A DNA stretch of 64,000 bases, taken from the NCBI RefSeq assembly GCF_003385185.1, contig NZ_PQHZ01000034.1, forward strand, positions 1-64,000, given 5' to 3'. The notes below the pieces were generated by a model. That model was not told where the DNA came from. It saw only the letters and a program-made list of their open reading frames with translations, and searched no databases. Of the stretch, positions 43,083-57,268 are shown piece by piece (position 1 is the stretch's first letter; the number at the start of each line of letters is the position of its first letter). This stretch comes from Amycolatopsis palatopharyngis. Lineage in GTDB: Bacteria > Actinomycetota > Actinomycetes > Mycobacteriales > Pseudonocardiaceae. A program made the position numbers and the translations under genes.

Positions 43083-43838
43083 TCAGGGTGTGACGAGCGA
43101 TCTCAGCACCGGCATACCGGAGCCGGTGCGGATCTCGAGGGCAGCGATGTTCGCGCGGCGCAACTCGGTGCCGACCGACATTCGCGCCGTGTCCTCCGGC
43201 ACCGCGTGCCACCACGCCAGCTGATCGCGTACGCGCCCGTCGGGGCCGATGGCGACGAGTACGTAGTCCCCCGCGGACTCGCCCCCGTAGCTGCAGGACA
43301 TATCGACCTTGGTCCCCCAGCGAGTCTCCGTCACACCGAGACTCGCCTCGACCGGATAGGGACCCAGGGGGGACATCGGGGCCATCGGGGCCGCCCCGGC
43401 GGGCACGGTCAGCGGAGTCTCCTGGGCCATCGCGGCCCCATCCGGTGCTCCCGCCTCCCCTGGTGCCGCTGGGCCGGCCAGCAGCAGTACGGCGACGCAC
43501 GCCGCCACCGCGACCGCGGCGAAACCGGCGAGACCGAGCCTGCGCATCTTCCGCGACCTGCGCACCCGCGCCGCGAGCGAATTCAGGGACTCCGCCGAGA
43601 CGGGGTCGTGCGGTTCACCCGCGCCATCGGCCGCGAGCGGTGCGGGCGGTTCCGTGGAGCCGGAGTGTGCCAGCAGGCCCGGGAGTCCGGCGAGTTCGCG
43701 TACCGAACGTGAACATTCAGCACAATCGGCCAGGTGCTGCTCGTACGCGCAGCGGTCCTCCGGGGAGAGCGCACCGAGCAGGTAAGCGGCGTCGAACTCG
43801 GCGAAGGGGTCGGGTCGTTCGCGCATCGCCTCGTTCAC
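43083..43838 (-). CDS. Zinc-dependent transmembrane anti-sigma factor (RslA-like)
   Basis: This 251-residue protein is the cognate anti-sigma factor of the adjacent ECF sigma. The cytoplasmic part carries the zinc anti-sigma motif HxxxCxxC (His35, Cys39, Cys42, in EQHLADCAECSRS), preceded by FDAAYLLGALSPEDR. A single membrane helix follows (about 108-128, GFAAVAVAACVAVLLLAG), then an extracytoplasmic domain ending LEIRTGSGMPVL. The size and layout match M. tuberculosis RslA. The GTG start overlaps the sigma stop (GTGA). Release of the sigma probably depends on redox change at the cysteines or on proteolysis; this is family knowledge. Confidence 0.88.
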   Translation of the reverse strand: MNEAMRERPDPFAEFDAAYLLGALSPEDRCAYEQHLADCAECSRSVRELAGLPGLLAHSGSTEPPAPLAADGAGEPHDPVSAESLNSLAARVRRSRKMRRLGLAGFAAVAVAACVAVLLLAGPAAPGEAGAPDGAAMAQETPLTVPAGAAPMAPMSPLGPYPVEASLGVTETRWGTKVDMSCSYGGESAGDYVLVAIGPDGRVRDQLAWWHAVPEDTARMSVGTELRRANIAALEIRTGSGMPVLRSLVTP

Positions 43839-44347
43839 CGGGTCACCCCCTTCTCCTCGAGAACCAGCCGCAGCGCCCGCAGTGCGTAGTGCGTCCTGGA
43901 TTTGACGGTGCCCTCCGCGACTCCGAGCCGAACCGCCGCGTCGGCCACCGAGAGTCCCTGGAAGAAGCAGAGGCCGAGCACCTCGCGGTGGCGCGCGGAG
44001 AGTTCGTCCAGCGCATCGGCCACCAGCCAGCCCTGGACGGCACGCTCGGTCCCGTCCGGTTCGGACAGTTCGGGCGGGATATCGGTGGGAACCTCCGACC
44101 TGGCCGCGGCCGAGCGCCACCCATCGATGGCGATCCGTCTCGCGACGGTGAACAGCCACGCACGCGCCGATCCGTCACGCTGGTCGAGCACCCTGGGATG
44201 GCGCCAGGCTCTGAGTAACGTCTCCTGCACGACGTCCTCGGCGCGCGCCCGATCTCCGTTGGTGAGCCGCAGGGCGTAGAACGAAAGGGCCGGGGCGTGC
44301 TCATCGTGCAGCGCCCGCATCAGCCGGTCCTCCGCCCCGCCTTTCAT
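43835..44347 (-). CDS. sigL: ECF RNA polymerase sigma factor, SigL-like
   Basis: The 170-residue ECF sigma has region 2 (LSFYALRLTNGDRARAEDVV, LLRAWRHP, ARAWLFTVARRIAID) and region 4 (ELSARHREVLGLCFFQGLS, AEGTVKSRTHYALRAL). Length, the zinc anti-sigma partner and the promoter in front of the operon (TGAACC-N16-CGTGTA) all point to the SigL group of M. tuberculosis; the exact subgroup is inferred. The ATG at 44347 overlaps the stop of the small membrane protein gene (ATGA), so the three genes form one unit. Confidence 0.88.
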   Translation of the reverse strand: MKGGAEDRLMRALHDEHAPALSFYALRLTNGDRARAEDVVQETLLRAWRHPRVLDQRDGSARAWLFTVARRIAIDGWRSAAARSEVPTDIPPELSEPDGTERAVQGWLVADALDELSARHREVLGLCFFQGLSVADAAVRLGVAEGTVKSRTHYALRALRLVLEEKGVTR

Positions 44348-44712
44348 TCGCGCCGCGCCTGCGGCAGCAGCAGCAACACGCCGCCGACGACGCAGACCAC
44401 CTCGGTCAGCACGCCCCAGACCTCGGCGGAGGTGCGGAACTGTTCCTGGACGCCGAGAAACCCGACGGTCAGCGAAAGCAGATAGGCGCCGAGCGTGGCG
44501 GCGCCGAATCCGGCCGCCGCCAGCGGGGGCAGCCAGTGCCGCCGCCACACGGCGAGCGCGATGGCGATCAGGACCCCCGCCACGACGTTGACCAGGAAGA
44601 GCGGACCGACGATGGCCACGTCCCCCGCCCAGTCCAGCCACACCACAAGATGCACCCAGGCCGAACCGAGCAGACCGGCGATCACCAGTAACCGCAGTGC
44701 CCCGAAGATCAT
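44344..44712 (-). CDS. Four-helix membrane protein, first gene of the sigma operon
   Basis: I do not recognise a named family. The protein of about 122 residues has four hydrophobic helices (about 5-22, 32-55, 64-82, 95-115) and short loops, with Trp-rich segments such as SAWVHLVVWLDWAG. It precedes and overlaps the ECF sigma gene (ATGA) and lies directly behind an ECF-type promoter, so it is probably a regulon member or signal-sensing partner. The ATG at 44712 has GGGAG upstream; ATG at 44724 is an alternative. Confidence 0.75.
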   Translation of the reverse strand: MIFGALRLLVIAGLLGSAWVHLVVWLDWAGDVAIVGPLFLVNVVAGVLIAIALAVWRRHWLPPLAAAGFGAATLGAYLLSLTVGFLGVQEQFRTSAEVWGVLTEVVCVVGGVLLLLPQARRE

Positions 44713-44757
44713 GCCCGCTCCCATGTCCTGTCCGCGTGGTCTCGTCCCTCGACGGAG

Positions 44758-44785
44758 TACACGAGACACTCCCCCTTCCGGTTCA
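44758..44785 (-). promoter_or_regulatory. ECF sigma promoter for the sigma operon
   Basis: On the minus strand TGAACC (44785-44780) is followed after exactly 16 bp by CGTGTA (44763-44758). This fits the published SigL promoter pattern TGAACC-N16-18-CGTgt. Transcription would begin near 44750, giving a short leader to the membrane protein-sigma-anti-sigma genes and hence autoregulation. The -35 box is one arm of the palindrome at 44772-44813. Confidence 0.75.
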
Positions 44786-44813
44786 ATTCTCAACCGAATT
44801 GAACCGGAAGGGG
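44772..44813. repeat. 18-bp perfect palindrome joining two divergent promoters
   Basis: Positions 44772-44789 and 44796-44813 are exact reverse complements with a 6-nt centre. Each arm contains TTGAACCGG, so the palindrome supplies the -35 box of a promoter in each direction. It may simply duplicate the promoter, or also be an operator. Confidence 0.8.
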
Positions 44814-44827
44814 AACTCCGTCGTGGT
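44800..44827 (+). promoter_or_regulatory. ECF sigma promoter for the Rieske gene
   Basis: TGAACC (44800-44805) is followed after 16 bp by CGTGGT (44822-44827), the same spacing as the opposite promoter. The ATG at 44835 lies 8 bp beyond the -10 box, about where transcription should start, so the Rieske mRNA may be leaderless. This places the Rieske gene in the regulon of the neighbouring sigma. Confidence 0.7.
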
Positions 44828-44834
44828 AGCGGAT

Positions 44835-45293
44835 ATGACTGCCGAACCGAACTCCGGACTCCACTCCCGCCGTTCCGCGATCACCGTCGGCGCTGTCGGC
44901 GCCGTCGCGGCCGGCACCATCCTCACCGTCTCGGCCTGCGCACCGGGTGAGGAGGGCGGCGACTCCGCGCAGCCCGGCTCCACCCCGACACCGTCCGCGG
45001 GCGCATCCCTGGCCGTGCTCGCGGACATCCCCGTCGGGGAAGCCACCGCCGTCACCACCCCGGACGACCAGGAGATCATCGTCTCCCGGCCGACCGAGAC
45101 CACGGCCGCGGCGTTCAGCGCCATCTGCACCCACCAGAGCTGCAAGGTAAAGCCGGAGGGAAGCGAGCTGCGCTGCCCTTGCCATGGCTCGGTGTTCGAC
45201 GCGCTGACCGGCGAGGTGCGCAACGGACCGGCGGATCGGCCGCTGCCGTCCGTCCCGGTTTCGGTCGAGGGCGGCAACGTGGTCGCGGGCTGA
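44835..45293 (+). CDS. Rieske [2Fe-2S] Tat-exported lipoprotein
   Basis: The 152-residue protein has a twin-arginine signal (SRRSAIT, Arg12-Arg13), a hydrophobic core and a lipobox ending at Cys35 (VSAC). The mature part is a small Rieske domain, with CTHQSC and CPCHGSVFD supplying two Cys and two His cluster ligands and the disulfide pair. Folded export with its cofactor through Tat is typical. The redox partner is unknown. ATG at 44835 was chosen because it suits leaderless transcription from the ECF promoter; GTG codons at 44820-44826 are alternatives. It ends 7 bp from the convergent EIIA gene. Confidence 0.88.
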   Translation: MTAEPNSGLHSRRSAITVGAVGAVAAGTILTVSACAPGEEGGDSAQPGSTPTPSAGASLAVLADIPVGEATAVTTPDDQEIIVSRPTETTAAAFSAICTHQSCKVKPEGSELRCPCHGSVFDALTGEVRNGPADRPLPSVPVSVEGGNVVAG

Positions 45294-57151: not shown

Positions 57152-57268
57152 TGGCTTTCCTTGGTCGTACGGGCCGGCGCGCGAGAGGGTTCACGCGTAC
57201 CGGGCCGGGATGGCTGTGCGGGCCGGTCGAGGCGGAGGGAACCGCATCCCGGTCGAGGAGCGGTGCTG

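Follow-up and report, generated by a model that had tools for sequence, protein, structure and literature searches.

In the 64,000-nucleotide stretch of Amycolatopsis palatopharyngis DNA analyzed here (the window), a gene for a Rieske protein and an operon for a SigL-type ECF sigma factor diverge from a short intergenic region that contains a long palindrome. The locus raises the question of whether this palindrome is a regulatory element in its own right or arises from two promoters facing each other and, in the latter case, which sigma factor reads them. SigL is a less-studied sigma factor (available portion of PMC13002591), and its named targets share no single physiological theme. The occurrence of shared start signals before the genes for a stress-response sigma factor and an exported iron-sulfur protein, together with their retention in related soil bacteria, suggests control of electron carriers at the cell surface by this sigma factor.

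Gene organization of the locus

The gene to the right of the intergenic region (44835..45293, plus strand) encodes a Rieske [2Fe-2S] protein of 152 aa (PF00355, E = 4.7e-13). Its sequence contains a twin-arginine signal, a lipobox-like cysteine and the C-x-H and C-x2-H ligands of the cluster, present as CTHQ and CPCH; the RR, AC, CTHQ and CPCH residues were invariant in 30 sequences from the genus. Judging by these motifs, the protein would be exported and lipidated.

The left operon, on the minus strand, begins with a gene for a small protein (44344..44724; 126 aa when counted from the chosen ATG) that appears hydrophobic by eye. No Pfam match was obtained for this membrane-type protein. A tblastn match was found at all 30 genus loci, and the sequences GSA.VH, HWLP and GFG were retained at a level of at least 95% in the 30 alignments. 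The stop codon of its gene overlaps the start of the sigma factor gene as ATGA (44344-44347). The sigma factor (43835..44347, minus strand, 170 aa) contains the Sigma70_r2 and Sigma70_r4 domains and scored 228.9 bits against the NCBIfam model NF007227 (cut-off, 202), which we take to be the SigL model (PRK09645). Its best PDB match was Mycobacterium tuberculosis SigL (6dv9_F, E = 1.2e-49), followed by the sigma4 domain of SigL (3hug_A, E = 4.4e-21), with other sigma factors matching at 1.4e-12 or weaker. The third gene (43083..43838, minus strand), for which a GTG start overlapping the sigma factor stop codon was chosen, encodes an anti-sigma factor with a zf-HC2 domain and the sequence HLADCAEC (HXXXCXXC); the best PDB match was chain B of 3hug (E = 5e-11). 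The 3HUG entry is the SigL-RslA complex, and the HXXXCXXC motif of RslA binds zinc there and forms a disulfide (available portion of PMC2877774). The left operon had been described in an earlier note on this DNA as encoding a membrane protein, a sigma factor and an anti-sigma factor of a SigL-like kind, and the sigma and anti-sigma factors are indeed closest to SigL and RslA.

A pair of predicted divergent ECF-type promoters

A TGAACC box was found on each strand between the divergent genes. The candidate right promoter (44800..44825, plus strand) consists of TGAACC as the -35 element (44800-44805), a 16-nt spacer and CGTG (44822-44825), with the Rieske ATG downstream at 44835. The candidate left promoter (44760..44785, minus strand) consists of TGAACC (44785-44780), a 16-nt spacer and CGTG (44763-44760), this last site reading CGTGTA at 44763-44758. 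A TGAACC -35 element with a 16-nt spacer was reportedly described by Hahn in 2005 for the M. tuberculosis SigL regulon.

The -10 preference of M. tuberculosis SigL is CG followed by T-G-N-C/A-A-G, and is strongest for G at -11 (available portion of PMC6372665). The right -10 element (CG TGGTAG) has four of the five specified bases and the left one (CG TGTACT) three, TG being included in both cases. In an alignment with SigL, His54 is conserved and Asp60 faces Q, with D one residue off; both are -10 specificity residues of SigL. If the T of the right -10 element is taken as -12, the predicted transcription start falls beside the first base of the Rieske ATG. The pattern TGAACC-N16-CGT occurs four times in the window against a mean of 0.42 in shuffled sequences, with none of 100 shuffles reaching four, and there are 64 sites in the 7.0-Mb genome versus 10 for the pattern read backwards. 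At the genome rate, the chance of a pair of such sites within 110 bp is ∼2.5e-7, a post hoc value from which orientation and ATG spacing are left out.

A Rieske match of the window type was obtained in 35 of 36 genus genomes, the other (G029) giving a weak match only, and both promoters were found at 31 of these 35 loci, window included. At the 30 best-scoring loci, again including the window, both divergent promoters were present without exception; TGAACC and CGT were invariant on both sides, and the spacers varied. The further five loci had the left promoter in every case and the right promoter in one (L334). At all 30 loci read first, the Rieske gene was linked to the membrane-type gene, and at 27 of them the sigma factor gene lay beside these two. 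In the nearest named relative, Amycolatopsis marina, the Rieske protein of which is 87% identical, the gap from gene start to gene start is 265 nt compared with 107 nt in the window, and both promoters are kept. The distance from the T of TGAACC to the Rieske ATG was 35 nt at 29 of the 30 loci and 34 nt at the remaining one. Given that this spacing is fixed at 34-35 nt, a leaderless Rieske mRNA is predicted, in line with the earlier proposal that the Rieske ATG sits near the expected transcription start.

At three of the 30 loci (L016, L019 and L028), an ATG at +35 of the left promoter opens a 12-codon frame that ends in an ATGA overlap with the start of the membrane-type protein; close relatives have ATA. 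This frame possibly encodes a leaderless coupling peptide.

Candidate readers of the promoters

An orthologue of the sigma factor (E < 1e-79) was present in 31 of 40 genus genomes and absent from nine, eight of which keep the Rieske gene. The left promoter was intact in all eight. The Rieske promoter was intact in four of them (G001, G009, G034 and G035) and had lost its -35 box in the others (G010, G012, G024 and G026); two genomes of the former group, G009 and G035, also retain the ferric reductase promoter described below. Overall, the Rieske promoter was intact at 27 of 27 loci with the adjacent sigma factor versus 4 of 8 without it (Fisher p = 0.0013, a value that ignores kinship). The four losses are alike in sequence and perhaps reflect a single event. 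Co-loss of sigma factor and promoter was set aside as a proof of recognition, since half of the eight sigma-less genomes have an intact Rieske promoter and all have the left one. In Amycolatopsis antarctica (L325), the sigma match was just 39% and CGAACC replaces TGAACC, and in a MAG that may be incomplete (L326) neither a sigma match at 1e-25 nor a recognizable promoter was found. Both keep the Rieske gene, with no match to the membrane-type protein, the sigma factor or the anti-sigma factor within 3 kb on each side.

Retention of the promoters in the absence of the sigma factor implies either another reader or a recent loss of the sigma factor, and another sigma factor can probably read them in the sigma-less genomes. 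The earlier assignment of both promoters to the adjacent sigma factor thus holds in part: all 27 loci that have this sigma factor have both promoters, but eight genomes that lack it keep at least one. These are presumably genuine ECF promoters under either assignment, and their main reader might be a paralogue of the adjacent sigma factor or another ECF sigma factor with similar -35 and -10 preferences, the adjacent one being one of several or a minor one. This we consider unlikely, albeit deserving of weight. The four sigma-less genomes with both promoters intact are consistent with it, as are the sigma relatives of 45-55% identity that are common in the genus. Of nine paralogous SigL-like sigma loci fetched, three (L341, L342 and L346) have TGAACC-N16-CGT within 400 nt upstream, suggesting that paralogous sigma factors overlap in promoter preference. 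The sites of SigL, SigE and SigH are, moreover, alike in M. tuberculosis (available portion of PMC4821874), which widens the field of possible readers. Against a second reader stand the unbroken retention of both promoters at loci with the adjacent sigma factor, the loss of the Rieske -35 box in half of the sigma-less genomes and the content of the window genome, where one match to the sigma factor was found at E 1e-36 (all 71 candidates scored) and one at 1e-30 (24 of the 71 scored). Given the single match at E 1e-36, the adjacent sigma factor is the likely reader in the window genome.

Origin of the palindrome

The two TGAACC boxes fall within a palindrome at 44772..44813, the 18-nt arms of which (44772-44789, CCCCTTCCGGTTCAATTC; 44796-44813, GAATTGAACCGGAAGGGG) are perfectly complementary, flank a 6-nt loop and are nested within a longer 30-nt pair of 83% complementarity. 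Each arm, read outward, gives TGAACC, 16 nt and then CGTG, and direct reading therefore confirmed the palindrome as it had originally been described. A dyad of this length and perfection could form a hairpin or be the operator bound by a dimeric regulator, whether repressor or activator, and any promoter likeness would then be secondary. Comparison of the 30 genus loci makes such a role very improbable: perfect arms range from 6 to 18 nt, the 18-nt length being confined to the window and the remaining 29 loci having 6-12 nt, and the TGAACC boxes are separated by 8 to 45 nt, yet both promoters are still intact. The position of the dyad between divergent genes likewise argues against this role. 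A palindromic operator was rejected on the grounds that the dyad is constant in neither length nor position.

The expectation that the same palindrome would precede orthologous operons was borne out for the promoters (31 of 35 genus loci) but not for the palindrome itself. Because the palindrome is not conserved across the 30 loci while the promoters are constrained, these alignments indicate that it is incidental, a by-product of two facing promoters.

Related sigma factor loci in other families

At E 1e-30, 92 of the 150 order genomes and 59 of the 148 class genomes contained relatives of the sigma factor, some genomes being in both sets. From among the matches listed, 118 sigma loci were drawn, and removal of 8 duplicates left 110 that span 46-100% sigma identity and may include some paralogues. 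The pattern TGAAC[CT]-N16-CGT precedes the sigma operon at 93 of the 110 loci, in the TGAACC form at 88. It was missing from 17, among them two with too little upstream DNA (L163 and L179, <100 nt), which were retained in the 110. A divergent copy was found at 38 loci and both promoters at 35. Of the 38 divergent promoters, 22 are followed by an ATG or GTG at +33 to +37, 13 of these being outside the family of the window (L123-L131 being counted as inside).

A divergent Rieske gene was identified at 28 loci (L197 being counted by hand), 26 of which have the divergent promoter, compared with 12 of 82 elsewhere, a comparison that ignores kinship. In other families the Rieske slot is occupied by the gene for a cupredoxin lipoprotein at L132, L133 and L140 and for a DUF2231 membrane protein at L178, L210 and L233, each above the Pfam cut-off and each with the same promoter and an ATG 34-36 nt on. 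The same slot thus holds different candidate carriers in different families. Less regular arrangements comprised an exported-looking protein without clear family that starts 59-62 nt past the promoter (L154 and L155), a Lipoprotein_15 gene preceded by a TGAACG variant (L156), weak cupredoxin matches below cut-offs (L153 and L230), and DUF2231 and Rieske motifs that are co-directional with the sigma factor gene and just before it (L174 and L223). At 66 of the 110 loci, there was no divergent promoter and no member of the five partner families looked for.

Rieske genes away from the sigma factor were represented by nine stretches, with the Rieske motif in four and the promoter upstream in two, which give weak support: L285 from G048, a fragmented genome in which Rieske-sigma adjacency is possible, and L291 from G047, in which the best sigma match reached just E 5.6e-36. 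The pair pattern GGTTCA..TGAACC-N16-CGT matched in 183 of 297 family genomes and 45 of 60 relatives, counts that may include coding matches and are not evidence.

Two features of the window, a sigma operon preceded by the promoter and a Rieske gene as its candidate neighboring output, are found again at related loci outside the family. That both motifs are chance matches is scarcely credible, for although many of the 62 other sites in the genome fall in long open frames, the probability of the pair is very low (see above), it is kept at 31 of 35 loci despite diverged spacers and it recurs in other families.

Further genes with the same promoter

A search for the leaderless pattern gave matches in all 30 genus genomes, many of which look like coding sequence; only sites recurring before the same gene start were accepted as leaderless targets. 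Such a promoter precedes the gene for a ferric-reductase-like membrane protein in 17 of the 30 genomes, at positions consistent with those of the ferric reductase matches. When ferric reductase loci were compared, TGAACC-N16-CGT with an ATG 34 nt on was found at 26 of 30 and was missing from L320-L323; two of these four genomes, G004 and G028, lack the promoter although the sigma factor is present. Genes for FMN_bind and then ApbE proteins follow the ferric reductase at L278, and the same FMN_bind protein was recognized by eye at L276. These ferric reductase-FMN_bind-ApbE sets of other Amycolatopsis resemble the window Rieske gene in having the same leaderless promoter. The window genome gave no match to the Amycolatopsis ferric reductase at E 1e-20.

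A DUF2252 gene with a leaderless promoter was observed at L246, L262 and L280. Sites of this type occur in nine of the 30 genus genomes, L246 and L262 having been read and the other seven assigned by likeness of the site.

Within the window genome, the 62 sites beyond the pair were read, and most lie in long open frames. One extra candidate (L031, C1:71556-71580) is a TGAACC-N16-CGT site before the gene for an exported-looking protein that shares 58% identity with the L154 protein across 131 residues. The frame ends early (178 aa versus 227 for L154) and may be broken. Its product gave a match in 3 of 60 genomes, the G041 copy lying ∼0.8 kb past the sigma match of that genome. In the window itself, a further TGAACC-N16-CGT site (57169-57193, minus strand) ends 17 nt before a GTG of a reading frame that resembles alanyl-tRNA synthetase. 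On these comparisons, the regulon is likely broader than the Rieske gene and the sigma operon.

Discussion

Our interpretation, which we consider quite probable, is that the locus belongs to a SigL-type autoregulated regulon, in which back-to-back promoters would be read by the adjacent sigma factor and the right one would give a leaderless Rieske mRNA. The left promoter would drive expression of the membrane protein, sigma factor and anti-sigma factor, and thereby autoregulation, and the right promoter would start transcription at, or 1-2 bases from, the Rieske ATG. The zinc-type anti-sigma factor would hold the sigma factor, and on its release both operons would rise together. The product would be a Tat-exported, lipid-anchored Rieske protein serving as an extracytoplasmic one-electron carrier, to which the same promoter would add other redox proteins in relatives. 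Here, we infer from sequence both the start sites and the reading of these promoters by the sigma factor, as well as its redox-dependent release. The conserved promoters, the homology to SigL and RslA and the fixed spacing lend support to the autoregulated redox module, with the Rieske protein as a direct output, that was put forward in the earlier note.

We read the direct outputs of the SigL-type regulon as including exported electron carriers. Comparison of promoters suggests a theme for SigL, namely small exported or membrane electron carriers that are often leaderless, and from the nature of the targets we infer that this theme is extracytoplasmic electron transfer; such a role is putative for the DUF2231, DUF2252 and Lipoprotein_15 proteins. 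A bolder proposal, offered tentatively and considered less likely than not, is that actinobacterial SigL-type sigma factors run an extracytoplasmic electron-transfer regulon, often leaderless, in which the carriers are interchangeable: a Rieske protein, a cupredoxin, a DUF2231 membrane protein or an FMN-bound carrier supplied by a membrane protein of the ferric reductase type. The zinc-thiol of the anti-sigma factor or the small membrane protein might then sense the redox state of this pathway and close the feedback loop. The comparison of promoters offers a testable idea of the function of SigL-type sigma factors, along with a set of candidate carriers from which a search for partners can start.

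Among the matches listed from the open-licence literature, no paper linked a SigL-type sigma factor with Rieske or cupredoxin genes; the available portion of PMC2799521 mentions Rieske, SigL and anti-sigma factor in separate places. Both SigL and Rip1 are linked with growth under iron limitation (available portion of PMC10449499), which may bear on the inducing signal. Related literature, likewise available in part, includes PMC8103513 and PMC7509140.

The window Rieske protein shares the C-x-H and C-x2-H ligands and the twin-arginine signal with the QcrA and PetC Rieske subunits of quinol oxidoreductases. It scored far below the NCBIfam cut-offs for QcrA and PetC (45.5-47.9 bits versus 154-275) and differs from these subunits in its length of 152 aa and its lipobox-like cysteine. 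The targets of M. tuberculosis SigL include pks10/pks7, Rv1139c-Rv1138c and recN, among others (available portions of PMC13002591 and PMC6372665), and a Rieske protein is not named as a SigL target in the portions of the cited literature that were available. The M. tuberculosis SigL-RslA system and the window have in common the order of sigma and anti-sigma factor genes, the HXXXCXXC motif of the anti-sigma factor, a -10 element with CG and TG, and a sigma-dependent promoter, predicted in the case of the window, before the sigma factor gene. By contrast with SigL-RslA, a membrane-type gene heads the operon in the window and a Rieske gene lies divergent to it.
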